From assembly GCF_028767125.1 (NCBI RefSeq), contig NZ_JAKCWP010000001.1, positions 186,001 through 250,000 on the forward strand: a stretch of DNA of 64,000 nt, in the 5' to 3' direction. Source of the DNA: Chelativorans sp. YIM 93263. GTDB taxonomy: Bacteria; Pseudomonadota; Alphaproteobacteria; Rhizobiales; Rhizobiaceae. This document shows, piece by piece, positions 3,081-19,526 of this stretch. Below the pieces are notes generated by a model, which ran no database searches, was not told the origin of the DNA, and saw only the letters and a program-made list of their open reading frames with translations. The translations under genes were made by a program, and so were the position numbers. Numbering within the stretch: the stretch's first letter is position 1; the number at the start of each line of letters is the position of its first letter.

Positions 3081-3346
3081 AGTACCCTCTCCAAGTCAAA
3101 TGCACGCGCAGCACGGGCTGCCCCAGCTCCTGCCGGTCGCTGCCCGTGTTGCGACTCAAGTCTGAGGACAGGCTAGCAAAACAATCTCGCACCAGTATTT
3201 GGTCAGACCGGATCTGGCCGAATTCGCTGAAATGATTTTCCAAATGTTCCTCCAAACGGGATCTGTTTTGCATGGGGGGCCCGATTGGACATTTAGGGAT
3301 CATCGGGCTACCCATTGACGGTTTCGGCTTGGGGACGGGGACAAAC

Positions 3347-4915
3347 ATGGTGCGCTACAACGATCTGGTCTTTGCGCGCGATATGATCAGCGCCGAGCAT
3401 GACGATGGCCGCACCGTCCGCTTTACCCGCCAAGAACGCGCCCTGCTCTTTCGGCTGGTCAGGGAACCGCAAACCCTCGTCACGCGCGCGCAACTGCTCG
3501 ACGCGCTGGGTGGGAGCGAAGCCACCCTGACCGAGCGCAATGTCGATTATCTCATCAACAGGCTGCGCAGCCGGTTGGGCGACAGCGCCCGTGCCGCGCG
3601 CTTTATCGTCACCCAATATGGCGAGGGCTATTACTGGGCCGCCAATCCGGTCAACAACGATCCGCTGAGCGGCTTTCTGCTCATCGGTCCCATCTCCGGG
3701 CTTGCCGACCTGAGGACCTCCGCCAACGGTTTTCCCGATCACCTCAAGCAGGAAATCAGTAGGGCTTTGGGTGGGCGGCGAAAGGTCCTGATCTGTCCCC
3801 ATTACCAGCCATCGGTGGAAGGTGGGGACCGGCTCGACTTTACCCTCGAGATCAGCGCCCATGCCGACAGCGATGTTTTGCACCTGGCACTTGTACTGCG
3901 CCAAGGGCGCACAATGCAGGTGGTCGATCGGTTCCGCCGGGCCTGGTCGCCCAGGCTGGAAAAAAGCTCCAATCAGGCCAGGGCGCTGGCAGGCGCCATC
4001 GCCGAGGCGCTCTGGCGCCATGAAGCCGACATCGCCCGAATCCACGCTAGCCCCACCGACCGGCCGGCGCATTTGCGTATTCATGACGCTGCGATGATGC
4101 TGACCGACGACACAAGAAGCTGGAAAGAGAATGCCTCACGGCTGCAATCGGCCTTTCAGGCCGACAAGGCCGACCCGCGCAACGCCGTCATGCTGGCGCT
4201 CAACCATTACAATCGGCTGCTCCAGAGTCTCGGAGAGACACCACCGCTTTCAGACGCGGACTGGACCGCACTTGAGGTCGAGATCGAAGCTTTTGCCCTG
4301 CGCGCCTTGCCCGAGGCTCATGATAATCCCGATCTGCTGCTGGCCATCGCCAAGCTCTTGCGTTTCATCGACAGAGGGTTTCTCGATCTGGCCGCGCGGC
4401 TGACCGACGAAGCGTTCGGCCAAAGCACGGCCTTTGCCGCCAGCTTTTCCATGAAGGCCCAGATCGCGGCCAGTCGGGGCGAAATCGATAACGCCACGGC
4501 GCTTTACGACAAAGCAATCGAGCTGGCCGAGCCCGGTTCGCAGTTCCATATCTACCTTTTGATCCTCAAAATCGTCGCCATGATGGCTGGCGACAAGCGC
4601 GGGATGGTTGAGCATCTTGCCGTCGAGCTGTATGATTTTGTGCCGCGCGCGCAAACCAGCTTCGGCTTGTTCTTCATCTCGCCGAAAGCGAAGCAGCTTG
4701 CTGCGCCCATGGAGCAGGCGCTTGCCTCGATGCCTGTTGCCCAAGCCCGGCAATTCTCTGACTATCTGTTCCGAATATCAGCCAGGCAATTCCAGCGCCG
4801 CGCGCACCAGCGCAATGTTCTCAAAGGACTGACAACGCATATCATGCGGCACCATGGGAACGAGGCTATCGCTCCGGTGATCCGCAAGAGGTTTCCCGAG
4901 CTCGTTATAGGATAA
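3347..4915 (+). CDS. Winged-helix transcriptional regulator with FlgO-like and TPR-like C-terminal regions (paralogue 1)
   Basis: This is a 522-residue cytoplasmic regulator. The first 100 residues are an OmpR/PhoB-type winged helix (core TERNVDYLINRLRSRLGD, wing FIVTQYGEGYYWA), here at the N-terminus with no receiver domain. Residues of about 110-235 resemble the TolB-N/FlgO-like domain often found after such winged helices, and the rest is all-helical and TPR-like. It has no membrane segment, unlike CadC. I chose the ATG at 3347 because GGGGACGGGGAC precedes it and the domain begins at once; an ATG at 3272 would add 25 Gly-rich residues. It is divergent from the giant autotransporter gene, the likely target. 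The protein at 12962-14761 is a full-length paralogue. The effector it senses cannot be read from the sequence. Confidence 0.8.
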   Translation: MVRYNDLVFARDMISAEHDDGRTVRFTRQERALLFRLVREPQTLVTRAQLLDALGGSEATLTERNVDYLINRLRSRLGDSARAARFIVTQYGEGYYWAANPVNNDPLSGFLLIGPISGLADLRTSANGFPDHLKQEISRALGGRRKVLICPHYQPSVEGGDRLDFTLEISAHADSDVLHLALVLRQGRTMQVVDRFRRAWSPRLEKSSNQARALAGAIAEALWRHEADIARIHASPTDRPAHLRIHDAAMMLTDDTRSWKENASRLQSAFQADKADPRNAVMLALNHYNRLLQSLGETPPLSDADWTALEVEIEAFALRALPEAHDNPDLLLAIAKLLRFIDRGFLDLAARLTDEAFGQSTAFAASFSMKAQIAASRGEIDNATALYDKAIELAEPGSQFHIYLLILKIVAMMAGDKRGMVEHLAVELYDFVPRAQTSFGLFFISPKAKQLAAPMEQALASMPVAQARQFSDYLFRISARQFQRRAHQRNVLKGLTTHIMRHHGNEAIAPVIRKRFPELVIG

Positions 4916-5194: not shown

Positions 5195-5797
5195 TCACGT
5201 CTCTTTGGCCTTCTCCGCATTCTCGAAAAGACGTTCGCTGATCAGGCGCAGGAAGAAAAAACCAAACTGGGGGTTTTGGAAATAGAGTTGCTTGAGATCG
5301 GAATAGGAGATCCGCCTCACCTGCCCGGACTCGACACATTCGAGGCTCTGCGTTCGCGCGTTTCCCGGCGACAGGAGACCCAGTTCGCCGACAATTGCCC
5401 CGCTGCGAAATTCGATGCCCGATTCCAGCAGGCGAAACAATCCGCTTTCAACATGAAGCATCTCGCCAGCAGGATCGCCCTTGCGGAATATGACCTCGCC
5501 GGCCGCATATCGGCGCATTGTTCCGTAGTTGCGCAACCATTCCATGGACAAATCACTGCGTGAAGCCACATCGACTTCGCGTATCAGCTGCAGCATCTGA
5601 TAAAGACGCCAGCCGTTGAGCGGCAGCAGGATGCCGGACATGGCGATCAACGGAAAGCTTTGCGTGACGACGCCGTAGAAGAGAAAGACAATATTGGCGG
5701 CGATGGCGAAGATGCGCAACGGGATGATCGTCGTTAGGGAATAGGTGATGATGGTCAGCGCAGTGCCGACGAAGCCGATTAGGTCGATCCACATCAA
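5195..5797 (-). CDS. Membrane-anchored cyclic-nucleotide-binding protein
   Basis: This 200-residue protein has about three N-terminal membrane segments (residues 3-75) followed by a CRP-type cyclic-nucleotide-binding domain (about 85-195). The phosphate-binding cassette reads GELGLLSPGNARTQS and keeps the Glu and Arg that contact the cyclic nucleotide in CRP. No helix-turn-helix follows, so it is not a CRP-type transcription factor. The layout, a small membrane domain followed by a cNMP domain, resembles Popeye-like proteins, but that is only a topological likeness. It is the last gene of a minus-strand series that contains a CHASE2 adenylate cyclase, 51 bases after the DUF3307 gene. Reading the cyclase product at the membrane is therefore a reasonable inference; its output is unknown. 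Confidence 0.8.
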   Translation of the reverse strand: MMWIDLIGFVGTALTIITYSLTTIIPLRIFAIAANIVFLFYGVVTQSFPLIAMSGILLPLNGWRLYQMLQLIREVDVASRSDLSMEWLRNYGTMRRYAAGEVIFRKGDPAGEMLHVESGLFRLLESGIEFRSGAIVGELGLLSPGNARTQSLECVESGQVRRISYSDLKQLYFQNPQFGFFFLRLISERLFENAEKAKET

Positions 5798-5848
5798 TTT
5801 ACGTCCTGGCGATTCTTTTAGAGCTGCTTTGCTGTTTGCCGGTTTCGA

Positions 5849-6226
5849 TCAGGAGTTGGCAATAAGGGCAATCGCGCAAACGGCAACATAGGTTACGTGG
5901 TGCAGAAACTGGTCCAGCCCGGTCATGCGCCAGAACCAGCTTTCATCTTTTCCCTCGGAGAATCTCGCGACCTGCTCCTTCGCCCAGTCCAGATGATAGT
6001 GCGCCACGAATTCGCCCGCGGCAATAAAGGCTGCAATATCTGCCTGCACCGACAGCAGGACCAACAGGAGAAAAGTGCCCGCCGCGTGAAGACCAGAGTG
6101 CAAAAGGCCGCCCGGATGTCCGTAAATGCCTTTGTTGCGCAGTTGGTAAGGCGTCTGGTATACGAAATCGAACAGGTAGTGCTTGAACTCGAGACCGACG
6201 AGCAGGAGAAGGGTTGTTAATGTCAT
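5849..6226 (-). CDS. DUF3307-like small membrane protein
   Basis: This 125-residue protein has about three hydrophobic segments and a His-rich pattern (FKHYLFDFVYQT, HSGLHA, EFVAHYHLDWAK, FLHHVTYVAV). The HxxHD-like spacing and KHYLFDFVYQT start recall the DUF3307 family, integral membrane proteins of unknown function often found in rhizobial and phage genomes. It starts 29 bases after the cyclase stop codon and precedes the cNMP-binding gene by 51 bases, so the three are probably co-transcribed. The conserved His residues in membrane segments could bind metal or haem; that is speculation. No catalytic motif is recognised. Confidence 0.7.
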   Translation of the reverse strand: MTLTTLLLLVGLEFKHYLFDFVYQTPYQLRNKGIYGHPGGLLHSGLHAAGTFLLLVLLSVQADIAAFIAAGEFVAHYHLDWAKEQVARFSEGKDESWFWRMTGLDQFLHHVTYVAVCAIALIANS

Positions 6227-6255
6227 GGTATGTTATGTCCCGTCCCGGCAGTTGA

Positions 6256-8577
6256 TCACTTGTTAGGCGCCACGAACACGCCGGTCCAGCCGGGTGGTGG
6301 CGGACCTTTCCGCATTGCATTCAAGCGCTCGCCGTAGACTTCGTAAACCCGGCTCAGCACCGTCGGTGCCCAGGCACGGGCCCGCGACAGCGCCGTTTCC
6401 GCTGCGTCAGGATCGGCACTTCTGTACGTTGCGATCAACCGGGCATGCGCGTCAGCCAGCTTTTCAAAGGCCGGCGTGCTGGCAAAATCCGCCCCGCCCA
6501 GCAACGCGTAAATTGTTACCGCTTCTGCGCGGCCCGTCACCTGCACCCGATCAACCTCCACGAAGGCCAGATCCCTGGCACCCGCCCGAGTCGCATCGCT
6601 GACCAGAACGGGCACGTCATAAAACTTGGTCAGGCCCTCGATGCGTGACGCCAGGTTAACCGTGTCGCCGATGGCAGAATAACTGAACCGCTGTGCCGAC
6701 CCCAAATTGCCGACGCAGCATGCGCCAGAGTGCAGGCCGATTCCAATTGACAGGCGCCCGTCCTCGTCGGCGTTCAGCCGCTCCAGCGCGTCTACCATGC
6801 CGAGAGCTGCAAGGCATGCTTTGCGGGGATGATCGGCGATATCGAGCGGCGCGTTCCAGAATGCCATGATTGCGTCGCCGATATATTTGTCGATGGTCGC
6901 GTCGTGGTGGAGGAGCACCTCGGTCATCGGAGTGAGAAAATCGTTTAAGAGACTGGTCAGCACGTCGGGATCAAGTCGTTCGGACAGGGACGTGAAGCCG
7001 CGAATATCGGAAAACAGCACCGTTAGTTCGCGTGTCTCGCCTTCGAGGTTGAGTGCCTGGGGATTTTGGGCCAGCCGCTCGACAAGCGTCGGGGAAAGAT
7101 AGCGGCCGAAGGCACCACGGATGAAACGTCGTTCACGGTCGGTGAAGAGAAGGAGCACCGGCATTGTAGCCGTGAAGACGGCCGCTGCGGCCAGCGCCGG
7201 CAATATTGGGTCGAACAGGATCTGTGCCCTGCTGAAGCAAAACCAGGAGATCACGATAGAGAGAGAGACGAGTATGGCGGCAGCGGCGCTGCTGACAAGC
7301 GGATTTGCGCGCAGGGCCAGGGCAAGTATGGCAAGGGCGAGGAGGACCGCCAGGAGGCTTTCCGCGCCGCCGATCCAGTCAGGGCGCGTCAGAAAAATTT
7401 GCCCCATAATCTGGTCGATGATTTCGGCATGCACGCGAGCGCCCGGCAGCGCCTCGTTGACTGGTGTCGTTACAAGATCGCGCAGGCCGACCGCGCTGGT
7501 CCCCACCAGCACAATGTGTCCGTCCACCAGTGGCCGAAGCTCGCGCTTTCCGGAAAGCAGATCTACGGCCGATATGGTCCTCATCCTGTCGAGACCGGAA
7601 TAATAGACGCGGAACTGTCCAGCGGGTCCCGTCGGCACGGAAAACATGCCGATCTTCACAGCTGTCATTGCCGGCGACCCCGCTCCGGCTTCGCCACTTG
7701 CGCCGGTGCTGCGAACGAGAATGGCGCCGGCGTCTTGCGCTACCCTCAAGGCCTCGATCGATAGGGCTGGATAAAGACGGCCCTGCGCATTGGCAACAAG
7801 CGGTAGAGCACGGACAACACCGTCACTGCCTATGGGAAATGAGAAAAAGCCGACACCGGATGCGGCTTTCGTCAGGATCGATAGATTGCGCACGCCGCCC
7901 CGGAGCTCGGGCAAGTATGTCTTGGGGTCGGCACCCCCGAAAGCGAAACCGGACTTGGCGGAGGGCAGCCTCGCGCCCGTTTCGTTGCTGATGGCGATGC
8001 CGTTGATAACCGGATTTCGCGAAAAGGCTTCGCCCAGCACGGCGTCATTGTCCAGTTCCGTTGCGTCACCGGAAAGTTCCACCGGGATCCCCGCCTTGGC
8101 CAACGCGGCGATTGCGCGAACGGGCGAAGTGCGGTCAGGCTCCGGGAAGACCATATCGAATGCAATCGCTGCCGCGCCGAGTTCACCGAGGCGATCGACG
8201 ATTTCAGCCATCGTCGTGCGCGGCCAGGGCCATTGCCCGAGCTGACGCAGCGAAGCTTCGTCGATGTCAACGATGACGACGGGGGCGCCCGCCTCAGTTC
8301 TCGGCTTAAAACGCTGATAAGCGTCGAAAACGATGTTGCTAAGGCGCGTGAAATCCTTCGGCACGGATAATGCGGCGAAGAGAACAGTTCCCAGCGCCGC
8401 AAGGCCGAAGCAACAGACCAGGAGATCCCGTCGCCTGTTGCCGTTTTTGCGGAAATGTCCGCCGAATATCCCGCGCCTTACCATGGGCAATCGCTGCTCA
8501 GCCCAGGAACGCCATCCCGCGGTGTCAGCGCCTCTGTCCGGCAAAGATACCGCTGGCGCGCCAGTTGGCGCCGTCAT
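6256..8577 (-). CDS. CHASE2-domain adenylate cyclase
   Basis: A 773-residue class III cyclase. One N-terminal membrane helix (about 50-70) is followed by a periplasmic CHASE2 sensor (about 75-375, with VVIVDIDEASLRQLGQWPWP), three membrane helices (about 395-475) and a cytoplasmic cyclase domain (about 515-700). Both metal-binding Asp residues are present (LFSDIRGF and DKYIGDAIMAF). The Lys of DKYIGD and the Asp of SAIGDTVNLASR favour adenine, so cAMP is the expected product. The ATG at 8577 lies inside the end of the preceding FecR gene, a 53-base overlap that suggests translational coupling; ATG 8484 is an alternative start just before the first membrane helix. It is the third gene of the five-gene series, and its CHASE2 domain could sense a periplasmic state linked to the neighbouring secretion pair. 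Confidence 0.9.
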   Translation of the reverse strand: MTAPTGAPAVSLPDRGADTAGWRSWAEQRLPMVRRGIFGGHFRKNGNRRRDLLVCCFGLAALGTVLFAALSVPKDFTRLSNIVFDAYQRFKPRTEAGAPVVIVDIDEASLRQLGQWPWPRTTMAEIVDRLGELGAAAIAFDMVFPEPDRTSPVRAIAALAKAGIPVELSGDATELDNDAVLGEAFSRNPVINGIAISNETGARLPSAKSGFAFGGADPKTYLPELRGGVRNLSILTKAASGVGFFSFPIGSDGVVRALPLVANAQGRLYPALSIEALRVAQDAGAILVRSTGASGEAGAGSPAMTAVKIGMFSVPTGPAGQFRVYYSGLDRMRTISAVDLLSGKRELRPLVDGHIVLVGTSAVGLRDLVTTPVNEALPGARVHAEIIDQIMGQIFLTRPDWIGGAESLLAVLLALAILALALRANPLVSSAAAAILVSLSIVISWFCFSRAQILFDPILPALAAAAVFTATMPVLLLFTDRERRFIRGAFGRYLSPTLVERLAQNPQALNLEGETRELTVLFSDIRGFTSLSERLDPDVLTSLLNDFLTPMTEVLLHHDATIDKYIGDAIMAFWNAPLDIADHPRKACLAALGMVDALERLNADEDGRLSIGIGLHSGACCVGNLGSAQRFSYSAIGDTVNLASRIEGLTKFYDVPVLVSDATRAGARDLAFVEVDRVQVTGRAEAVTIYALLGGADFASTPAFEKLADAHARLIATYRSADPDAAETALSRARAWAPTVLSRVYEVYGERLNAMRKGPPPPGWTGVFVAPNK

Positions 8578-11287
8578 TGACCTGGAAGTCGCCGATCACA
8601 CCCGCGGCAATATCACCTCCGTCATTGACGAACGCGCCGCTCGCCGAACCCTCAACGCCACCGCCACCCGCGAGGGCGCCCTCGAATGTCGCCTGGCCGC
8701 TGGTCGCTCCATTGACGGTGCCGCCGAAGTCGCGCCCGTCGAAGCCGGAGACGGAAACCTCTCCTGTTCCCAGACCGAAATTGTAATCCATATCCATTTC
8801 GCCTGCTGCGACATATGAGGCGTCATTGTTGATTACGTTGCCGACCGCGAGGCCCTGATATGTTGCCGTCGATGTAGAAAGCTCGCTCACATCGGCGATA
8901 TCGCCTACGGCCCAACTGCCGAGATGGACGCCGACGCGCTGGACGACCTCGGACGCATCGCCTTCGGAAACGGCCACCTCGGCCTGTGTCCCCCACCACC
9001 CCCATTTCAGGAAATCACACTCGGTACACCGGTGGTCAGCATCCACGCCGCTCATGAGCTCGCTTTCGGACAGCCCCTCCACCGCGCCGGAGGAGACGAA
9101 ATAGGTTGCCGCTTCCTGCGTATTCACCTGCTTTGCAACGAGCTCGTTTTGGATGACATAAGTTTTGTCATTGTTCGGATTGGCGGTGGCGCCGAACGTG
9201 TCGTCATCGATGTGTGCAGAAGCGCCGTCCTCAGTGTTTCCGTCAATCCCATCGCCGAACGGGACGATCAACTCGTCCGGCGTCCCCATCGGACCAATGC
9301 CTTCGACACGGATGGACCCGCCGAGACTGCGGTTCTCAGGATTGAAGATCACCTTCGCATCGGGGCCGCTGGTTTTTGCAAGAACCGGGTCGAAGGAACC
9401 ATAGTGGTTCGAATAGGCGCCTTCGATAACGCCTGCAGCATAGCCGTTGTATTCTCCCGAAAGCCCACGCGATGGCGCGGCTTTCTCGGCTTCCAGATTG
9501 CCCACATGGACGGTCGAGAAATCGGCTCCGGCGACAAACTTGTTCGATTGGGAGTCGTAGAAGTGGCCGGGTTCGAGCATTTCGTCGCTCACGACGAAAT
9601 TCTCTCCGTTGGAGCCGAAGATTGATCCCCCAGACACTCCGGCAATAGTTCCTGCCGTGCCGAACATCTGGAATGACGGTCCGTTGGCGGAAACGCGGTA
9701 GCTGCCACGACGGTCAAGACGAAAGCCTTTGCCGTCGGTGGAGACAGCGCCGACATTCACCCCGATGGCGCTTTTCTGATCCGCCCCCGTTCCATTGATG
9801 GAAACCCAGTTCTGGAACACACGCGCACTGCCATCAGCAACGTTTGCGGATTCGGCAAAGAAAAGGTCGGATGTCGCAGCCTCGGAGAAATCGAAATTGG
9901 GATTGTCAGTCACGAACGGCACAGTAACGCCCTGGAGCGGGTCGACCGTCAGGCTGTAGCGCCGAACACCTTTGCCCTGGAAAACCGAGAGGCCATTGGC
10001 CTCGGTTCCTCTGACGGCGTAAAAAGGCTGCGACGGATCCCCATCGATGCCGAGAAGGTAGGCGGTGAACGCGTCTGGGCCGCTATATGCCGTGCCCGAC
10101 AAGAGACCGAACGGAGACGAAGCCGCATCGACCTCGTGAGCGGTAAACGCCTCGTCCTCATAGACAGGCAGCGTCACGGTGCCCTGCTCAAGCTCCCCGG
10201 TTCCCTCACCCTTCCCATCTTCTACCTTGAGCGTGATGCTCTGGTCGTGAGCGGACGAGCCGCCGACAACTCCGTCTCCGCCCGCTTCTTGCGCCGTCAG
10301 AACCCGGAGCGGAACATATGAATATTCCGGCGGTTCCGGCGTACCGCCATCACCCTCGCCAGGGTTGCCGCCGTCTTCGTCGCCGCCGGGAGTTCCATCG
10401 CCATCATTATCGCCAGACTCTTTGTCGAGTTCCCTTCGAACTTTCTCTAGCCAAGCTTCCTGCGTAAGATTCACTTGAGCTTTTCGCTCCCTGACAAATT
10501 GCTCGAGCACCTTCTCCTGCGCTCGTTGTTGGGCTTGCCTGGCGAGAATTGCCTGCTGCTGCTGCGTCCGCTGCTCCATTCGATATTGTTCGAGCTTTTT
10601 ATTCACATACTCGGGGGGAGCCAGCGGCGGGAAATCTGGATCAGCGTTCTTAGCCCAAAGTAACCTGCCAATTTCATAGACCATTTCCGGAGAAATAATC
10701 CCCGTACTAACATCTAGAGATCCATCGGAAATACCCGCAATTATTCCTTGACCCTCCAGAACTTCATAGTTCTTTTGGGTGCCTGTCGCCTGATCCGTTG
10801 TCAGGCTGAGTTGCCTTCCGAACAGCAGTTGTCCCTCAAAGCTTACCGGGGTTACCCTCATATCGGCGATTGCGCCTCGAATGCCGACAGTCCCCACGGG
10901 CGTTTTAATGTTCACTCCGCCCTTGCGTTTCGATGCTATGCCGCCGATGAAGCGGAAGATTCCTTTGCTGGCAGAGGCAGTCAGCTCGGCTGTTCCGGTG
11001 TCCGGATCGTAAACAAAAGAATCGATCGTCAAGCTTGAGTCGGGCCCGACAGTGAAAGTAGTGCCATCCGCCAAGAGGATTTGCAGAAGGCCATCAGTAT
11101 CAGTTTCGACATGCTCGTTATGAACAATGCGATCACCCAATCGAATGGTGCGCATCGATTCACCAGGGTGTGTGCCGTACGCGGACGGAGTGACAGCTGC
11201 ACTTACCCCAACCTGTTCTGCGGATACTGGAGCCACCGTGAACACCAGGCAGAAAGCCGACGAAAGAAAGTCCCTACCAAGCGTCAT
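8525..11287 (-). CDS. FecR-domain exported protein with TbpB-like C-terminal barrel (candidate type XI cargo)
   Basis: A 920-residue exported protein with no lipobox. The signal peptide ends near residue 23 (APVSA). A FecR domain follows (about 35-145, with GDRIVHNEHVETDTDG and TPVGTVGIRG), then a Gln-rich coiled coil (about 225-285) and an acidic Gly/Asp linker (about 288-325). The long beta-rich part ends in repeated Gly-hydrophobic strands (ATFEGALAGGGGVEGSASG, FQVNDGANWRASGIFAGQR) that resemble the beta-barrel of TbpB/haemophilin-like proteins carried by Slam translocators. A CTECDFLKWGWWG motif precedes the barrel. TAGGAGAG precedes ATG 11287, only 9 bases after the Slam-like gene. Family knowledge: FecR domains in TonB systems transmit signals through the periplasm; here there is no sigma factor or TonB receptor nearby, so a secreted or surface role is inferred. 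Confidence 0.85.
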   Translation of the reverse strand: MTLGRDFLSSAFCLVFTVAPVSAEQVGVSAAVTPSAYGTHPGESMRTIRLGDRIVHNEHVETDTDGLLQILLADGTTFTVGPDSSLTIDSFVYDPDTGTAELTASASKGIFRFIGGIASKRKGGVNIKTPVGTVGIRGAIADMRVTPVSFEGQLLFGRQLSLTTDQATGTQKNYEVLEGQGIIAGISDGSLDVSTGIISPEMVYEIGRLLWAKNADPDFPPLAPPEYVNKKLEQYRMEQRTQQQQAILARQAQQRAQEKVLEQFVRERKAQVNLTQEAWLEKVRRELDKESGDNDGDGTPGGDEDGGNPGEGDGGTPEPPEYSYVPLRVLTAQEAGGDGVVGGSSAHDQSITLKVEDGKGEGTGELEQGTVTLPVYEDEAFTAHEVDAASSPFGLLSGTAYSGPDAFTAYLLGIDGDPSQPFYAVRGTEANGLSVFQGKGVRRYSLTVDPLQGVTVPFVTDNPNFDFSEAATSDLFFAESANVADGSARVFQNWVSINGTGADQKSAIGVNVGAVSTDGKGFRLDRRGSYRVSANGPSFQMFGTAGTIAGVSGGSIFGSNGENFVVSDEMLEPGHFYDSQSNKFVAGADFSTVHVGNLEAEKAAPSRGLSGEYNGYAAGVIEGAYSNHYGSFDPVLAKTSGPDAKVIFNPENRSLGGSIRVEGIGPMGTPDELIVPFGDGIDGNTEDGASAHIDDDTFGATANPNNDKTYVIQNELVAKQVNTQEAATYFVSSGAVEGLSESELMSGVDADHRCTECDFLKWGWWGTQAEVAVSEGDASEVVQRVGVHLGSWAVGDIADVSELSTSTATYQGLAVGNVINNDASYVAAGEMDMDYNFGLGTGEVSVSGFDGRDFGGTVNGATSGQATFEGALAGGGGVEGSASGAFVNDGGDIAAGVIGDFQVNDGANWRASGIFAGQRR

Positions 11288-11296
11288 ATGACTCTC

Positions 11297-12733
11297 CTAA
11301 AAGGTTCTCATGAGACCGATGGAAATAGTCGCGTTGTCGTGGGAGTTGATGTCGTAGTTCGAATCCACATCGCGGTAGCTAACCACCGTTTGAACGGCCC
11401 AGCTTTCTTTGAAGGGGACGGTTAGCATTCCGCGCACAAAGATTTCTGAATCGCGTTGCGCCGTAGAGGCCAAGATATTCGGATCGGCAGCACCGTATTC
11501 GCGTTCCAGGAATCCCGCTGCCAAACCGGCGACCCAGGGACGCTCTTGCTTGTCCAGGGGCGAAGCAAACCGGTAATTGCCGCCGAAGCTAAGGCCAAAC
11601 TCTTCGTTGCTCTTGAAATCCTTGCGGGCGTCGTGGCGCTGCGCCTCGGCCGTCACAAAGCCGGTTAGATTGCGGGTAAAGCGGTGTCGTACAGTGCCGC
11701 TGAGACGATATACGTCTCCGGTCTTGTAAGAGGAAGTGGGTCTCAAATCGGTGTTGTGATAATCTTCGTACCGGTATTCGGCGCCTATGCTCGCGATGGT
11801 GCGCTGGCTCAACGCCTTGTCGAATTCAAGCCCGGCGCCGACGCTTGTCCGGTACGTGTCGCCGTGAAGCGCGATCCCGCCAAGAATTCCGTAAATACCG
11901 ATACTGGAATCCTCTATGCCGAAGCGTTCGAGATCGACCACCGGACCGAACGTCAGCTCGCCAAGTGCGGTGTCGATCTCATCGTGCTCGGCAAAGAGCG
12001 CACCATAGGTTCGCAAATCCACATCGAAACGGTCACCCAGGGAAGAAAGCTTCCGCGAGTAGCGAAAATTGCCGGAAATGAAAGCGTTCGCGTCTGAGTC
12101 TGCGAGCGCAGTATCGTTGAGAATGAAATCAAGGCCGTTGAGGTTGATGATTTCGTCCTGCGGACCGCCATTCGCGTTCGTCTGATACCGAGCGCCAATC
12201 ATGATGCCGCCGTGGAACTGGTTAACTGCGGTCCTTTCCTCAATCGCTTTGAGATAGGGGGCGACGTTGGCCTGCACGGCCTGCGGAATGTTCGGCGCTG
12301 CAAGAGCTCGATCGAGATATTCCTTTGCCATCTCGTAGGACCCCAAGCGGAAATAGAGCACGCCCAATTCGAGCTGCAGCCGTGGAACGCCTGGGACCAG
12401 AATAAGCATACGCTGAAATGTGGAGATCGCCGCCTCGAGATCGCCCGCGCGCGAGGAAAGCGTCGCGTACTCGAATGCGGCGTCGAGATTGGCGGGATCC
12501 GCCATCATCATCTGGAGAAGCTTTTCGCGGCGCTCCTGAATGGCTGCGAGTGTCTCGCCGGTTACTTGCGGCATGACATTCGCCGTGTCCCGCGCTTGTG
12601 CCGGCAATGTCCACGGCAAGATCGCCAGAAGCGTGCATAAGACAGTGATTATGCACCTAGGCATCCTGTCGTTGAATGCCGAGTGCATTGTGCCGAGTAC
12701 CGGATCAAGTGGGGGACGCAGAGTGCGTGGCAT
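11297..12733 (-). CDS. Slam-like outer-membrane translocator (TPR plus beta-barrel)
   Basis: A 478-residue protein. The signal peptide is MPRCIITVLCTLLAILPWT with a 23-residue lead when started at ATG 12733. That start follows AAGGA at good spacing; ATG 12664 is the alternative, giving a shorter signal. Residues of about 50-165 hold TPR-like repeats (ANLDAAFEYATLSSRAGDLE, LQLELGVLYFRLGSYEMAKE), and the remaining part is amphipathic beta-barrel ending in Phe (IGLMRTF), as in outer-membrane proteins. A periplasmic TPR domain fused to a barrel is the architecture of Slam/DUF560 translocators (type XI secretion), which move TbpB-like proteins to the surface or medium. The next gene, 9 bases on, encodes a protein with a TbpB-like C-terminus, supporting a translocator-cargo pair. 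It is the first gene of the five-gene series. Confidence 0.8.
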   Translation of the reverse strand: MPRTLRPPLDPVLGTMHSAFNDRMPRCIITVLCTLLAILPWTLPAQARDTANVMPQVTGETLAAIQERREKLLQMMMADPANLDAAFEYATLSSRAGDLEAAISTFQRMLILVPGVPRLQLELGVLYFRLGSYEMAKEYLDRALAAPNIPQAVQANVAPYLKAIEERTAVNQFHGGIMIGARYQTNANGGPQDEIINLNGLDFILNDTALADSDANAFISGNFRYSRKLSSLGDRFDVDLRTYGALFAEHDEIDTALGELTFGPVVDLERFGIEDSSIGIYGILGGIALHGDTYRTSVGAGLEFDKALSQRTIASIGAEYRYEDYHNTDLRPTSSYKTGDVYRLSGTVRHRFTRNLTGFVTAEAQRHDARKDFKSNEEFGLSFGGNYRFASPLDKQERPWVAGLAAGFLEREYGAADPNILASTAQRDSEIFVRGMLTVPFKESWAVQTVVSYRDVDSNYDINSHDNATISIGLMRTF

Positions 12734-12961: not shown

Positions 12962-14761
12962 TTACCGGTGTTCCACCGAACCAGACCAGTCCGGCTCGAT
13001 TCTGCCTCTAGCTGTCCGGCTCAGGGGTCTAGGAATACTCATCGTAGCGGCGACCTCTCTGGGAACACAAGCATCGCCAAAGCAATCGGTAAGAAGGTTA
13101 AATGGCCGCTGTAAAATGTTGCACTGCTTTTGTGGATGCAGGAACAGCCGTGCGCAGATAAAGTGAACCTGCCGCAAACCGGCATAGGCCTGTTGACAAT
13201 TCATGCCGGCCAACATCGCTTCGAGATCCCCGCTCACATCGAGGCTTGGCGGCGGCTGGAAAAGCAGCGGGAACAGCCGGCGGTTTTGCGGGCCGCGATC
13301 GCACAGCCCTTTCAGCGCCCACCCCAAGGCTTCGGGATTTCCCGCAGCCGTGTGCGCCTGGCAAATCAGAACAAGCAGGTACAGGTGGAAGTGCGTTTCC
13401 GGTTGCGTGAAGCCAAGCGCCTTGTCGTAGAGCAGGAGCGCCTGCTCAATGTCGCCATTCCACATCTGGAGTTGCCCGTAGAGTGAACAGGCTGCTCCGA
13501 AGGCGGGGGTGGTCTCGAAGGCGCGCTTTCCAATTTTCATAGCAAGCGGCCTGTGGGCCGGATTGACGAACCACAGGAGCTTAGCCGCGGTAAGGGCGTG
13601 CACGCCGTTCTCCTGGATCCCGGGCAGCGCCCCACAAACCAGCTCTTCCATCTCGGCGATGTCTTCTTCGCGCGGATCCGACGACGAGAATATTTCGATA
13701 CCCGAGAGCACATATTTTGTGTGCAGCGCAATTGCGAGCATCAGTCTGGCTTCGGCATCATTTGGCCGTTCGTTAAGAACCGCACGCAGCCGATCCTCGT
13801 TATCCTTCCAGCTGTACTCCGGCACCGTGCCGACGACTTGCGCGGCTTCGTGCATCCGCACCGCCGTCGGGAGGGCGGTGGGCGCCTCCAGCGCAGATGC
13901 TTTGATGCCCACAAGATCCCAGATGCGGGCGACGATATCGGTGACCAGTCGATCAGCCACCGCGGTATTTTTTTCCGGGCTCCGTTCCACCTCGATCCGC
14001 GTAATCGCAACCACATCTTCGCTTTCGGAGCGTTTAAGGGTAACTGCGCAGTCGAGGCGATTGTCGATTTCGAGAAATGCAAGCTCCAGACGGAAGGCAC
14101 CGTCAGCGTGCTTCAGTTTCCGCGGAGAGGCAAGATCCGCCGCTCCGAAAATCGGCGTGGTGACCGAACGTAACTCTTCCTGTAGCCGCTGTCTTATTCT
14201 ACCGGTAAAACGCTCACCGGCCTTCCTGAACCGCTTACATTTACTCAGCCCCGTGAGCGGTCCCAGGATAATCGGTCCGGCGGGATCGCCGTTCGCCGCC
14301 CCACTATCGGCAATCCAGATATAGCCCTCGCCGTACTGCGTGGCGATAAACTTTGGGTCGTGCGCAGAATCGCCCAGTTTGCGTCTCAGCCGATTGACCA
14401 GATGGTCGATGTTTCGGTCGTTGACGTCGGACCCGTGGCCGGATACCGCATCGAGCAGAACATCGCGAGGAAGAACATGCCCCGCGCGTTGTGAAAACAG
14501 GAACAGAAGCTTTCGCTCAGAACGGCTGAAGCGGATCGTCTCTCCCTGCTCATCCACGGCTGTGGTAAAGTGCGCGTCAAACGCCAGATGCCCCCGCCGA
14601 ACCGGTTTACCCACCTTAGTGGCTCTCCCAACTATATCGCGGCCGCCTTCAGAAACCGATGCGACGCACAACTTGCCTTCAGAATGCAGTGAAAGCACCA
14701 CATTTTCAAGTGTACGGTCAGACTCGGGTGCGAAGAGCAGAAGTGCGCGATCTAATGACAT
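12962..14761 (-). CDS. Winged-helix transcriptional regulator with FlgO-like and TPR-like C-terminal regions (paralogue 2)
   Basis: This 599-residue protein matches the regulator at 3347-4915 along its whole length: winged helix (DRNIDHLVNRLRRKLGD, FIATQYGEGYIWIAD), a following GP-TGL segment, the FlgO-like region, and the helical tail with GDIEQALLLYDKALGFTQPE against GEIDNATALYDKAIELAEPG in the paralogue. It has about 50 extra residues before the winged helix. ATG 14761 is the first ATG; a GTG at 14836 would add 25 residues. It lies 228 bases upstream of, and on the same strand as, the secretion/cyclase operon, which it probably regulates by analogy with its paralogue beside the giant autotransporter. 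No membrane segment is present. Its 5' side abuts the decayed transporter gene, so its own promoter must lie in that remnant. Confidence 0.8.
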   Translation of the reverse strand: MSLDRALLLFAPESDRTLENVVLSLHSEGKLCVASVSEGGRDIVGRATKVGKPVRRGHLAFDAHFTTAVDEQGETIRFSRSERKLLFLFSQRAGHVLPRDVLLDAVSGHGSDVNDRNIDHLVNRLRRKLGDSAHDPKFIATQYGEGYIWIADSGAANGDPAGPIILGPLTGLSKCKRFRKAGERFTGRIRQRLQEELRSVTTPIFGAADLASPRKLKHADGAFRLELAFLEIDNRLDCAVTLKRSESEDVVAITRIEVERSPEKNTAVADRLVTDIVARIWDLVGIKASALEAPTALPTAVRMHEAAQVVGTVPEYSWKDNEDRLRAVLNERPNDAEARLMLAIALHTKYVLSGIEIFSSSDPREEDIAEMEELVCGALPGIQENGVHALTAAKLLWFVNPAHRPLAMKIGKRAFETTPAFGAACSLYGQLQMWNGDIEQALLLYDKALGFTQPETHFHLYLLVLICQAHTAAGNPEALGWALKGLCDRGPQNRRLFPLLFQPPPSLDVSGDLEAMLAGMNCQQAYAGLRQVHFICARLFLHPQKQCNILQRPFNLLTDCFGDACVPREVAATMSIPRPLSRTARGRIEPDWSGSVEHR

Positions 14762-14825
14762 GCTGCAGTGTTTGATCTGAAAACTCACAGAGGCCTCACC
14801 CTTCGCGACCGGGCTCTTTACTACA

Positions 14826-15605
14826 TTCAAGAACACGACCTTTGAGCTGCCGGTGATCTATCGCTCGGCGGTGTCCAACCTGCTGCCGGGCCGCTACTGG
14901 GGCAACATCTATGGCGGTGTGGAGTTCAAGACGCTCGATCTCGACACCTCCTTCGTGGGCATCCCGGTCGTCCATGACGAGGCCGATCTTTTCCAGATCG
15001 TCATCGGCTGGTCTGAGACCTGGGCGGATTCGTTCGGCTGCACGTCGGTCGACGCCCGCATCAAAGGGAACCCCGGCGGTGTTCTGTCGGCAACCATGCG
15101 GCTGCATGGGCGACCTTCTCCAACCGGCGTGTCGACGAAGTCACCTATTCCTATGGCGCCTTGGATGCGACACGCCAGACGGACCTGCCGGACCTGATCC
15201 TGGATCAGGCGCCTTCTCCGGCATCCTTGCCGGTCAGCCTCTGCCCGACACCGAACGGCTCTCGCTCGGCGGTTATTACGCCACGCGCCGCTACGACTTT
15301 GATGACGTAAGCGTCGACCGCGGTTTCGTTTGGCGCAACGGACTGCGCGCGCCCACCGTTTCGCCGCTTCAAAGGTAGCCGGGGAACCCTAGCGTCGTCA
15401 CCTTTTCTCTTCAGCGATCTAGGCGACGGCAAGGACCTCTTCAGTTCGCAAGCGTTCACGCTGGCCAGTGTGGCGCCGGCCTCGACTACACTGTCGCCGA
15501 CCACTTCAAATGCAATGGTTTTCCGCCGGATACGCCCTCAGGGACGCCGGCCTTACGGAGGCGGGCGACTGGACGATTCCGGCAAGAGTGAGCGCAACTC
15601 ATGCC
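14826..15605 (+). pseudogene. Decayed two-partner-secretion transporter (FhaC/ShlB/HecB type)
   Basis: Three reading frames together spell the C-terminal barrel of a TpsB transporter. One frame (from 14835) reads TFELPVIYRSAVSNLLPG and then WADSFGCTSVDARIKGNPGG; a second (from about 15095) reads RRVDEVTYSYGALDATRQTD; a third (to 15378) reads LAGQPLPDTERLSLGGYYAT and FVWRNGLRAP. After another break FLFSDLGDGKDLFSSQAF appears near 15405-15450. The order matches ShlB/FhaC barrels, including the LGG...R and VWRNELRAP-like strands. The N-terminal signal peptide and POTRA domains are absent and at least three frameshifts are present, so it cannot make a working protein. It overlaps the promoter side of the neighbouring regulator. 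Its partner exoprotein is not recognisable in the window. Confidence 0.75.
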
Positions 15606-15893: not shown

Positions 15894-18800
15894 TCAGAAC
15901 TGCCCTCCGACCTTTACGGCCAACGTGTGGTCGCGGCTTCTCCCGCCGGAGCCGAAGGCGGTTCGGTAATCGAAGCTCAGGTTCCAGCTCTCGCCGATCA
16001 GCGCATCGAAGCCAAGGCCGATGGTCAAACGGTCTCTGGAGAGAGGGTCAAACTCAATGGCGTATGGCAGGCTTCCGACGTCCGTGTAGCTAAGGCTGGC
16101 ACGGCTCGATCCCTCGAAGTCATGGGTGTATTCGATCCGCCCGCGGGGTGTCAGGACACCCCAGGCCCTCGGTATCGCATGTTCAAATCGCAAGCCCAAC
16201 GTTCCGTAGAGCGTGTCGAGCGTCTGGTCTCCGTAGGTCAGCCCCCAGATGCCGCCCCCGATTTCGCTGAAGCCGTCGAGCTTCGACCTCGAGGCTTCCA
16301 AACCGCCATAGGGGGAGATCAGCCAGTGGTCCTGCCGATACTCGTAGCCCGCCGATACGGAGCCGAAGACCTGTGTGCCGTCGCGCGAACCCGTGACGAT
16401 GTCTCCCGTCTCCGTCACGTAGCGGCGGCTGTCGAAGTCCATAAAGCCGTAACCGATCAGGCCGTCGATGAAGATGGACGGCATCGGCTTGTAGCTGCCG
16501 TAAGCGGCCACCGACCAGGCGTAGGCCTTACTCTCGGTGCCGTTGTCGCCCACCTCGGTCTTGTCACGGCCATATCCGAAGCCGAGGCCCGCCACGAATT
16601 TTCGCGAGAAACGGTAGTCAATCCCGCCGCTGACGCCCGCCATGGTGCTATCGAGGTCGAGACCGCCGCTGTCAGCTTCGGAAAAGTTGACGTATCCGCC
16701 TGTCCAGAAGGCGAGGCTGCTCGGCAGCCTGTCCGCAGCATGCGAGGCTGCATCCACTTTGGGAGCCCCTTGCATGCTCCGGAACGCCTCAAGCGCCGGA
16801 TCGGCTTCGATCTCCTGCCCGTAGGCGGTGCGCAAGGAATCGTCCTGCATCCCGATGTTAAGGTTCAAGGAGTTGCTGCGGCGATCGCCCTCATTGTGAA
16901 GTTGCTCGAGGCGGCGGTTAAAGTTCCCCGTCTGCGTCACGGCGAACCGCTTGGCGGTCTCGGCCTGCGCCCGCAGAATCCCGATCACTTCCTGGTCCTG
17001 AGACGGATCAGGGCGCGCGATCACGTTGACGGTGACTGTTGCCGGATCCGACGTGCCATCGGCGTTTGACAACGTGTATTGAAGGATGGACGTTCCCGAA
17101 AAGGTAGCGGAAGCCTGGAAGTTCAGCTCATAACTGTCCCTTTTCCGATCTATCGATGCTTTGCCCGCCTCGGCAGCAGGATGCGCAACGATCACTGCCG
17201 CAGTGAATGGACCGCCCGTCGCTCCGTCTGTCAGGTCGACGGCACCGCTGGTTCCCGCCATGACCTCCAGGACCATGTCCCGGGCGACCGGGATGTTCAG
17301 CGGTTCGATCTTGAGCGTGGCATTTGCCGCGCCTTCGAAACCGAAATTGTCGGTAGCTTTGACAGTAAAAGCGAAATCGCCCGCTTCCGTCGGTGTGCCA
17401 GACAGTGTGCCGTCTGAGGCGATCGTCAAGCCATCCGGCAGGTTGCCTGAAATCAGAGCGAACGCATAGGGCTCCGTGCCGCCCGAGGCCGACACGCTGA
17501 AGGGCCCGAATTCCGTGTTCACCTTGCCGTTAGGCAGGCCCGGCATGGTGACGGAGAGTTCCGGGGTGTCGATGGCAAGAGTGTATTCGCGCGTGGCCGT
17601 TACGTTGTTGGCATCAGTTACGCTCACGGTGAAAGTGAAACTTCCCGCAGCGGTCGGCAAGCCTGAGAGCGTGCCGTTGTCGAAGACCAGTCCATCGGGG
17701 AGATCGCCCGCCAAGGCAAAACGGAAGGGAGCAGTGCCGTCCTCGACAACGAAGGTCACCGGATCGTAGGCCGTTCCCGCTGATCCGTCGGGCAGGCTGG
17801 TCGGCGTCAGGGTGATCGGCGGGGCCACGGTCCATGGCGTCGCGCTCGTAAAGGCCGCATTGCTGTTACCGGCGAGGTTGTTTACCGCATTTGCCAAGAC
17901 GTCGAGGCGAAGGATGCCCGATCCGGAAATGTTGTCGACTCGAACGGTGTAAGCAATATCGTCCGCGGTCTGTATTGCGGTCAATGTCCCGGAGGCCGTG
18001 CCGGTTGACGCCAGCACCATATCGGCCAAGGCAAAGCCCGTAACGGCTTCGGAAAACGTGACCTCGAAGATCACGCTGTCGGCGTCAGGTGCAGGGTTGC
18101 CGGCAACTTCGATCGAAACAACCGCGGGATTGACGGCATATACCAAGACACTGCTGGTGGGGCCGACGTTCTTGAGCGCGAGAACCGCATCTGTGCCATT
18201 AGCATCTTGAATGGTGCCGCCGTTCGGGACAATCGCCGTTCCCAGCTCTATACCGTCGAGGTCCATCTCCTCCGGCTGGATTGTGTATCCGAATATAGGA
18301 TCTTTTGTTCCGCTGCCGGTTATATATGCCGCCGATCGTGTTGCCGCGCCGATGGTCAAAGGGATATAGGGCGTCCCTCCGGTCGTGTTTACAAAGATAT
18401 TTTCGTCCCAATGCACTCTGAAAATGAGCGTGTCTCCGGTCCGGTAATAGCCATTGGCCGGAACGGAAACGGATGTCACAGACGGCGGAATCGCTTCCAC
18501 GTTGTAGTTGTCGATCGTGCTGCCGGAGGCCAGATGGTTTGCGTCGCCATCGTATTCAGCACTGATTTCGTATGCTCCTCCGTCGTTGAAGGTGTGCGTG
18601 AAGACGGCTTCCCCGCTTGAATTCAGAGCCACGTCCTGTGGGGATGCACCATCGATCGTGAAGGTGACGTTCCCGCTGGGCACCGTACCATTGCTGCCGG
18701 AAACGGCAGCGGTAAAGGTGACGCTTTCTCCGGCGGCGCCCGAGGCCGAACCCGGAACCAGTGACATTGACGTGGCAGCTTTGGTGACTTGGATCGTTCC

Positions 18801-19526
18801 AGTCGAGAATCCGGTGCTGCCTCCGAAATCATCATCCCCGGAATACGAAGCCTGGTAGGAATGCACTCCGACGGGCACTGTGGTCGTGGTGTGTGTGGCC
18901 GTGGTCCCGACCAGCGGTGCCACGGCTGAATAAGCGGGCGCAAAAAAATCCCCGACTCTGAACGTAACGTCGCCAGTGGGTGTGCCGACGCCATTGGGGC
19001 TGATCGTTGCCGTGAACGTCACCGCCTCTCCGTATTCAACCGTGCCGGGGCTGGCCGACACTGTGGTAGTAGTCCCGCCGCCGCCATCGCGATTGACGCG
19101 GTGAACGTTCGATGAGGCGGTCCAACTGCCACCCACTCGGGTTGCTGAAATCGAGAAGCTCTCTATGACCAACCCGCTTGCCATGTCAGCTGCGGTAATC
19201 TGATAGCTCGCACTGCACTCGTACGGATCCGGCAGGGGGTTCGTGGCAGTCGGACAATTCGGAGTCAATCCCAGCCGCGTCGGCGTTTCAACTTCGAGCG
19301 ACGTAACGGTATATGATCCCGGATAGACCGTATAGCTGAAGACAATTGTCTCGCCCTCAGTGGTGAAAGTGTTCTTGTCGGATGTCACTTCGATGTGCTG
19401 CGCATATGCAGCTGTCGCCACGAAAATTGAGCAGACAAGGACAAGCAATGCGGCAGCCCGCTCGATCAGCAGACGATCAACATTTCCGTGAGAACGACTC
19501 ACGGCAGCAATAGAACCGGATTGCAT
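15894..19526 (-). CDS. Ig-repeat autotransporter adhesin-like protein
   Basis: A 1210-residue protein that is intact from signal peptide to barrel. The signal peptide ends at about residue 42 (FVATAAYA). Two bacterial Ig-like repeats follow (about 155-345; GEAVTFTATISP, GESVTFTAAVSG, each ending in a DVTF/NVTF strand), then a Big_5-like stretch with conserved SEAVTGFALADMV, and two dystroglycan-type putative Ig repeats (about 570-735; GDLPDGLVFDNGTLSG and GNLPDGLTIASDGTLSGTPT). The last 280 residues form an autotransporter beta-domain ending in VKVGGQF. GGAGGG precedes ATG 19526. This predicts a type Va surface protein, probably an adhesin, although no ligand can be inferred. It is bracketed by the two copies of the dispersed repeat, and decayed genes lie on both sides. 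Confidence 0.88.
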   Translation of the reverse strand: MQSGSIAAVSRSHGNVDRLLIERAAALLVLVCSIFVATAAYAQHIEVTSDKNTFTTEGETIVFSYTVYPGSYTVTSLEVETPTRLGLTPNCPTATNPLPDPYECSASYQITAADMASGLVIESFSISATRVGGSWTASSNVHRVNRDGGGGTTTTVSASPGTVEYGEAVTFTATISPNGVGTPTGDVTFRVGDFFAPAYSAVAPLVGTTATHTTTTVPVGVHSYQASYSGDDDFGGSTGFSTGTIQVTKAATSMSLVPGSASGAAGESVTFTAAVSGSNGTVPSGNVTFTIDGASPQDVALNSSGEAVFTHTFNDGGAYEISAEYDGDANHLASGSTIDNYNVEAIPPSVTSVSVPANGYYRTGDTLIFRVHWDENIFVNTTGGTPYIPLTIGAATRSAAYITGSGTKDPIFGYTIQPEEMDLDGIELGTAIVPNGGTIQDANGTDAVLALKNVGPTSSVLVYAVNPAVVSIEVAGNPAPDADSVIFEVTFSEAVTGFALADMVLASTGTASGTLTAIQTADDIAYTVRVDNISGSGILRLDVLANAVNNLAGNSNAAFTSATPWTVAPPITLTPTSLPDGSAGTAYDPVTFVVEDGTAPFRFALAGDLPDGLVFDNGTLSGLPTAAGSFTFTVSVTDANNVTATREYTLAIDTPELSVTMPGLPNGKVNTEFGPFSVSASGGTEPYAFALISGNLPDGLTIASDGTLSGTPTEAGDFAFTVKATDNFGFEGAANATLKIEPLNIPVARDMVLEVMAGTSGAVDLTDGATGGPFTAAVIVAHPAAEAGKASIDRKRDSYELNFQASATFSGTSILQYTLSNADGTSDPATVTVNVIARPDPSQDQEVIGILRAQAETAKRFAVTQTGNFNRRLEQLHNEGDRRSNSLNLNIGMQDDSLRTAYGQEIEADPALEAFRSMQGAPKVDAASHAADRLPSSLAFWTGGYVNFSEADSGGLDLDSTMAGVSGGIDYRFSRKFVAGLGFGYGRDKTEVGDNGTESKAYAWSVAAYGSYKPMPSIFIDGLIGYGFMDFDSRRYVTETGDIVTGSRDGTQVFGSVSAGYEYRQDHWLISPYGGLEASRSKLDGFSEIGGGIWGLTYGDQTLDTLYGTLGLRFEHAIPRAWGVLTPRGRIEYTHDFEGSSRASLSYTDVGSLPYAIEFDPLSRDRLTIGLGFDALIGESWNLSFDYRTAFGSGGRSRDHTLAVKVGGQF

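Follow-up and report, generated by a model that had tools for sequence, protein, structure and literature searches.

A recurrent trio of a Slam-like translocator, a FecR-domain protein and a CHASE2 adenylate cyclase: a possible link between surface protein export and cAMP

The 64,000-nucleotide window analysed in this study (Chelativorans sp. YIM 93263, NZ_JAKCWP010000001.1, positions 186,001-250,000) contains five minus-strand open reading frames (ORFs) at 5195-12733, window positions being used from here on. They encode a putative outer-membrane translocator with tetratricopeptide repeats (TPR) similar to Slam/DUF560 proteins, a FecR-domain protein, a CHASE2 adenylate cyclase, a small DUF3307-family membrane protein and a membrane-anchored cyclic nucleotide (cNMP)-binding protein. 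Comparison of cyclase loci revealed that the conserved unit is the trio of translocator, FecR cargo and CHASE2 cyclase and not the set of five genes. The composition of the trio as a recurrent composite system is well supported. A first-pass annotation of the window had proposed that all five genes form one signalling system, in which CHASE2 senses an exported FecR cargo and cyclic AMP (cAMP) is read locally at the membrane. The trio and a TbpB-like end of the cargo were recovered in our analysis; the five-part unit and the local reading of cAMP were not.

The cyclase loci comprised the best 80 of 575 relatives, 20 matches from another genome search and the window itself, a set that leans to close kin. 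After removal of L055, a duplicate of L044, 100 distinct loci remained. A Slam-like match was found within 6 kb of the cyclase in 44 of them, 17 of which had the TbpB-like C-terminal part, and FecR was also present in 43 of the 44. Among the named loci, 59 had a readable context (30 with Slam, 13 with type I secretion system (T1SS) genes, three with FecR only and 13 with none of these), while 20 others were truncated too early for a decision. FecR near the cyclase was also detected in records titled Elusimicrobia, Omnitrophica and Myxococcales. Recurrence of the trio is supported by these counts (Slam-like match and FecR in 43 of 100 loci); Rhizobium straminoryzae (L054) is one relative that carries it. 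All five parts together occurred in a single distinct locus, the window, and the five-gene unit was rejected as a conserved system. The initial genome search was lossy and its absences are soft, because a DUF3307 background search (matches in 6 of 96 genomes) overlooked the window's own DUF3307 gene. When 297 genomes from the order were searched with the Slam profile, 67 gave matches, many of them short, weak and restricted to the TPR part. In 33 of 34 fetched Slam-side loci, mostly the strongest among the matches listed, the N- or C-terminal part of FecR was encoded nearby.

Pfam matched TPRs in the translocator of the window, and SlipAM (PF04575) fell 0.1 bit short of its cut-off (21.9 versus 22 bits). 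The same model matched 6 of 14 members of the translocator family at E <= 0.01, the best of them at 8.9e-10. The predicted structure consists of helices at residues 62-168, forming the TPR part, and 14 long strands in a C-terminal barrel, for which CymA and OmpG were the best structural matches. According to PMC8406197, the type XI barrel has 14 strands compared with 16 in PgaA. A Foldseek search with the translocator returned the polysaccharide exporters PelB and BcsC as first matches; the 50 listed entries for this protein did not include Slam, an absence from which we draw nothing. With its modelled TPR domain and 14-strand barrel, the protein looks like a type XI (Slam/DUF560) translocator, and it likely exports the cargo across the outer membrane.

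The FecR protein starts with a hydrophobic stretch that ends in VSA and resembles a signal peptide, as judged by eye. PF04773 (aa 60-141) was the only Pfam domain above cut-off. The structure model shows an N-terminal domain with the FecR/PupR fold and a C-terminal lobe similar to TbpB and NHBA. The TbpB-like C-terminus expected from the first reading of the sequence was hence reproduced as a modelled TbpB/NHBA-like barrel, although TbpB_B_D and FHBP_C do not match the window protein itself. Among 10 members of the family, FHBP_C matched seven and TbpB_B_D one. When the FecR profile was compared with Protein Data Bank sequences, the sole match was the anchoring domain of an RTX adhesin (5ix9, E 2.5e-10). 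The LapA retention model NF033682 matched 11 of 12 family members, the window protein reaching 26.8 bits against a cut-off of 50. Two Cys columns directly before the barrel are conserved without exception in the 10 long FecR proteins of alignment A3 (spacing Cx(1-2)C), including those of L033, L039, L040, L047 and L053, and at least two Cys lie within the last 60 residues in 14 of 32 FecR ORFs shorter than 650 aa. A function of the Cys pair as tether or redox switch is possible. Such proteins would represent a predicted class of type XI cargo that begins with a FecR domain. A classical anti-sigma function of the FecIRA type was rejected for FecR, as PF04773 stood alone above cut-off and no anti-sigma domain match was found.

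In the cyclase, both CHASE2 (188.3 bits) and Guanylate_cyc (89.9 bits) scored above cut-off, and sequence comparison with solved structures gave adenylate cyclases as the best relatives. All 13 cyclases of alignment A1 share Asp 524, Asp 568, Lys 564, Asp 638, Asn 641 and Arg 645. We take Asp 524 and Asp 568 to be the metal-binding residues and Lys 564 and Asp 638 to form the adenine site, with transition-state residues also among the six. On these assumed roles, the two metal Asp residues and the adenine Lys noted in the first-pass annotation are retained. A cyclase-TPR protein without CHASE2 was seen in L182.

Divergence of the FecR protein follows the sensor part of the cyclase more closely than its catalytic part. 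Over 55 loci, pairwise FecR distances correlated with those of CHASE2 (r 0.61) more than with those of the cyclase's own catalytic domain (r 0.49). The partial correlations were 0.46 for FecR-CHASE2 and 0.22 for FecR-catalytic domain. Bootstrapping gave an interval of 0.015 to 0.198 for the difference, and none of 60 column-matched subsamples fell to the value of the catalytic domain; these loci share phylogeny, and the measure is a distance statistic distinct from a contact test. Such covariation is consistent with contact between FecR and CHASE2, and shared periplasmic selection could also explain it.

A second type of exporter occurs beside the same cyclase family. HlyD and a T1SS-type ABC gene were located within 5 kb of the cyclase in 13 loci. 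FecR was present within 6 kb in six of these, with adhesin-type repeats in all but one of the six proteins. A scan of seven long FecR proteins (those six and the one of L119) identified VCBS, tandem-95 or OmpL47/Ca-tandemer repeats in six; no T1SS gene was found in L119, though its FecR protein has repeats. The FecR domain is hence shared by proteins encoded next to both kinds of exporter, type XI-like and type I.

Taken together, these results suggest that the unit serves to export a surface protein and to signal this export through cAMP, CHASE2 reading a FecR domain that is retained in the periplasm; we hold this reading to be evenly balanced between right and wrong. Judging from fold, gene adjacency and family, the Slam/DUF560-like barrel would move the TbpB-like C-terminal lobe over the outer membrane. 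The FecR domain, homologous to the anchoring module of an RTX adhesin, would stay in the periplasm and hold the cargo to its exporter. CHASE2 might then read the retained FecR domain, or its displacement once the cargo is bound, strained or lost. The cAMP made in response would bind effectors, among them presumably the membrane cNMP protein of the same gene run, whose cassette residues are described below. Sensing of the cargo FecR protein by CHASE2 is plausible from sequence comparison, since members of the same cyclase family are encoded close to type I exporters and repeat adhesins bearing FecR, since operons of FecR with a CHASE2 kinase have been published (PMC5192318) and since FecR distances follow those of CHASE2 more closely than those of the catalytic domain.

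Extended beyond the trio, CHASE2 would be a receptor for FecR/retention modules in general, with the retained module of a type XI or type I cargo switching a cAMP or kinase output upon engagement or loss of the surface protein, a tentative proposal that we consider possible and somewhat doubtful. Burkholderia operons pair FecR with a CHASE2 histidine kinase, and in 2016 the recognition target of CHASE2 was described as not yet known (both PMC5192318). The loci described here offer a testable ligand candidate, namely the FecR domain of the exported partner. If the general proposal is true, CHASE2 gains a defined ligand, and the state of surface proteins would be read by cAMP in an outside-in counterpart of the Lap system, parallel to the control of adhesins by cyclic di-GMP (c-di-GMP) and Lap.

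Several observations weigh against a coupling of export and cAMP signalling by the trio. On the Slam side, a CHASE2-cyclase was near in only 13 of 34 loci (including one truncated by the edge of the locus), so that the Slam-FecR pair often occurs without the cyclase. In L162 (locus positions 6657-8384) and L173 (10639-12414), a 5'-nucleotidase, possibly another exported partner, is inserted between FecR and Slam, and no CHASE2-cyclase is near. Conversely, 13 of the 59 named readable cyclase loci have no partner gene, and FecR was not found within 6 kb in 7 of the 13 T1SS-type loci. No repeat family was found in the L131 FecR protein, one of the six on the T1SS side. Among the 44 Slam-like matches, six (L084, L085, L087, L095, L110 and L112) are TPR-sized ORFs of 133-176 aa, too short for a barrel to be shown in these loci. 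In 26 of the 43 loci with Slam and FecR, FecR gave no match to the C-part model of the window; many of these proteins are short, indicating that some can do without the barrel (by eye, an undetected one may be hidden in L118). The FecR model itself has a mean predicted local distance difference test (pLDDT) score of 63.7, with residues 166-320 below 50. The best cyclase tree needs two Slam/T1SS changes, and two independent exporter swaps were discarded as a conclusion because a single T1SS origin was not rejected (approximately unbiased test, p-AU 0.365). Furthermore, a cyclase match was absent from both same-genus genomes (G090 and G167) among the 199 searched, for which reason the unit looks patchy within the genus. 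Finally, no cyclase was near relatives of the cNMP protein in any of 11 fetched class-level loci (of 12 non-window matches) or in any of four fetched loci of a further set.

These counts bear on three other explanations. The Slam-FecR pair could be an ordinary surface pair, with the cyclase, DUF3307 and cNMP genes sharing a promoter and no common pathway; the 13 of 34 Slam-side loci, the partnerless cyclases and the single occurrence of the five-gene set in 100 loci would fit such a neighbourhood. FecR accompanies the cyclase in more than one gene order, in records of several phyla and beside two exporter types, which makes a merely loose association very improbable. The frequent FecR proteins without a barrel-part match beside the same outer-membrane protein (OMP) family (26 of 43) would agree with a model in which FecR is a wholly periplasmic ligand-binding subunit of CHASE2. 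The TPR-barrel protein would then act as porin or scaffold, and the TbpB-like lobe would bind its ligand in the periplasm. The match of the FecR fold to the periplasmic PupR domain, the SlipAM score marginally below cut-off and PelB and BcsC as first Foldseek OMP matches point in the same direction. We nevertheless regard this arrangement as distinctly unlikely, given that an 8-stranded C-terminal barrel beside a DUF560-type OMP marks cargo of type XI secretion systems (PMC8406197) and that five of six FecR proteins near T1SS genes contain adhesin repeats.

The connection could also run the other way: CHASE2 would sense something unrelated, cAMP would control the making or release of the surface protein, and FecR would merely be cargo. 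In Sinorhizobium meliloti, the FecR gene smc02177 is a target of the cAMP-dependent regulator Clr (PMC5498481), and several kinds of cNMP effector (EAL, SpoIIE, sulphate transporter, ion channel and Crp-like) are encoded in or beside the cyclase loci. Against such output coupling stand the closer agreement of FecR divergence with CHASE2 than with the catalytic domain and the pairing of FecR with CHASE2 kinases (PMC5192318), and we judge it rather unlikely. The sensing of a retained FecR domain by CHASE2 is the reading that we prefer.

The membrane cNMP protein scored 48.3 bits with PF00027 (cut-off 27.5) and has hydrophobic segments inside residues 3-56. The Glu and Arg of its cassette (GELGLL...ART) align with those of solved cNMP domains, as had been noted from the sequence. 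Both presumably act in cyclic-nucleotide binding. Proteins 51% identical to it are encoded downstream of the T1SS-type cyclase loci L074 and L077, with a metallo-beta-lactamase (MBL)-fold hydrolase in between; MBL-fold hydrolase genes were seen in cyclase loci L074, L077, L108, L118 and L187 and are perhaps a cAMP off-switch. At E 1e-15, relatives of the cNMP protein occurred in 12 of 385 class genomes, the window's included. The membrane module is fused to HlyD in L197 and to a methyl-accepting chemotaxis protein (MCP) signalling domain in L223 and L225, and on account of these fusions it looks like a cAMP-responsive membrane input module. In G000, a 93-aa frame on contig C23 contains 27 residues (17223-17303) that share 70% identity with residues 170-196 of the window's cNMP protein, a possible partial duplicate.

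Other cNMP domains in or beside cyclase loci are joined to EAL (L109, L131 and L125), SpoIIE (L126) or sulphate-transporter domains (L056 and L075), are Crp-like (L061 and L047) or occur as lone domains, and in L186 a cNMP ion channel directly follows FecR. A cNMP gene was present within 6 kb in 14 of 79 distinct named cyclase loci. We counted 18 cNMP ORFs in 1.26 Mb (80 named loci), two of them weak or short (L098; L118 1674-1931), versus 84 matches in about 58 Mb (13 genomes, a sum of rounded sizes), a comparison of our own hidden Markov model on the loci with the Pfam model on genomes of different taxa. In the genome of the window, PF00211, CHASE2 and FecR were found once each and PF00027 four times, and neither a second PF00211 cyclase nor a PF01295 cyclase was found in it. 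As no other cyclase of these families was found, the cAMP pool is probably global rather than local. The local reading at the membrane stated in the first-pass annotation is not supported, given this single cyclase facing four cNMP-domain genes and the 11 of 11 class-level loci in which relatives of the cNMP protein lack a cyclase nearby, in contrast to L074 and L077. A DUF3307 gene directly downstream of the cyclase on the same strand is also present in L033, L065 and L075; the DUF3307 protein is a recurrent accessory.

Table 1. Features of the five-gene region in the window
Feature	Position	Strand	Evidence
Slam/DUF560-like outer-membrane translocator (predicted; TPR domain and 14-strand barrel)	11297..12733	-	Pfam, model
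FecR-domain cargo protein (predicted), 920 aa	8525..11287	-	Pfam FecR 3e-7; model mean pLDDT 63.7
FecR / retention-module-like N-terminal domain, aa 25-165	10793..11215	-	
TbpB-like C-terminal lobe, aa 604-920; barrel strands start at aa 760	8528..9478	-	Model
Cys pair C754, C757, immediately N-terminal of the barrel	9017..9028	-	Columns invariant in A3
CHASE2 class III adenylate cyclase, 773 aa	6256..8577	-	CHASE2 2.5e-55, Guanylate_cyc 2e-25
CHASE2 sensor region of the cyclase, aa 65-415	7333..8385	-	Pfam
Small DUF3307-family membrane protein	5849..6226	-	Pfam 1e-6, 29.2 bits (cut-off 23)
Membrane-anchored cNMP-binding protein, hydrophobic N-terminal third and cNMP domain	5195..5797	-	PF00027 1e-12

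Gene calls are stop-to-stop ORFs. The arrangement and spacings (9, an overlap of 53, 29 and 51 bases) were all found as first annotated, two of the spacings depending on the choice of start codon. In the cyclase, an in-frame internal ATG at 8484 would abolish the 53-base overlap, and in the cNMP gene ATG 5794 behind AGGA is a likelier start than TTG 5797. A signal-peptide-like stretch of the translocator would start at the internal ATG 12664 (all three judged by eye). Scans for promoters and terminators returned 3 and 7 sites, not above shuffled sequence (3.6 and 11.0). Two paralogous OmpR-type winged-helix + TPR regulators (3272-4915, plus strand; 12962-14836, minus strand; phmmer E 2e-58) flank the unit and are candidates for its control. 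As parts of the unit they were rejected, L032-L201 giving only partial matches to the DNA-binding domain. Further along, 15894-19526 (minus strand) encodes an autotransporter with bacterial Ig-like repeats (Pfam Autotransporter 7.7e-55).

In the open-access literature, we found no paper linking FecR to type XI secretion, surface lipoprotein assembly modifier or retention modules, and none joining FecR, adenylate cyclase and type I secretion, or CHASE2 and cyclic nucleotide-gated. Related gene clusters are in print, so that the earlier statement that such a system had no prior description has to be narrowed. In Campylobacterota, a cluster of CHASE2-cyclase, FecR outer-membrane protein, TPR protein and phosphodiesterase has been proposed as one pathway (PMC9239204), and the exported-protein gene mtxA of Magnetospirillum is followed by a CHASE2 cyclase (PMC4439547). 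Like the window, the Campylobacterota cluster has a CHASE2 cyclase adjoining a FecR-domain protein and a TPR protein. In the available portion of PMC9239204, the TPR protein is not named a DUF560 translocator, FecR is not described as TbpB-type cargo and no T1SS variant appears. In the first 25 kb of the window, no phosphodiesterase was found, the MBL family being the one type searched. The mtxA product, unlike the FecR protein of the window, has an Ig-like and TPR C-terminus (PMC4439547). The Burkholderia FecR-LysM operon shares a FecR protein beside a CHASE2 receptor and differs in its histidine-kinase output and in LysM in place of the exported barrel (PMC5192318).

FecR/PupR anti-sigma regulators, in contrast to the window protein, are set apart by the anti-sigma domain for which it has no match and by its pairing with a cyclase. 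The type XI systems Slam, NilB and HrpB likewise combine a TPR + 14-strand OMP with a neighbouring cargo carrying an 8-stranded TbpB-type barrel (PMC8406197 and PMC12282271); FecR and cyclase are unmentioned in the main texts of both papers. The window differs from them in its divergent sequence, the FecR/retention N-terminus of the cargo and the link to a cyclase. In the Lap system, a periplasmic retention module anchors the adhesin in its exporter, T1SS and type Vb alike (PMC13090378). Lap and Dvh (PMC13090378 and PMC6890996) thus resemble our proposal in the N-terminal periplasmic module that retains a surface protein and in the link to a second messenger. They act inside-out through c-di-GMP, LapD, LapG and proteolysis, whereas the unit of the window would read outside-in through a cAMP cyclase.

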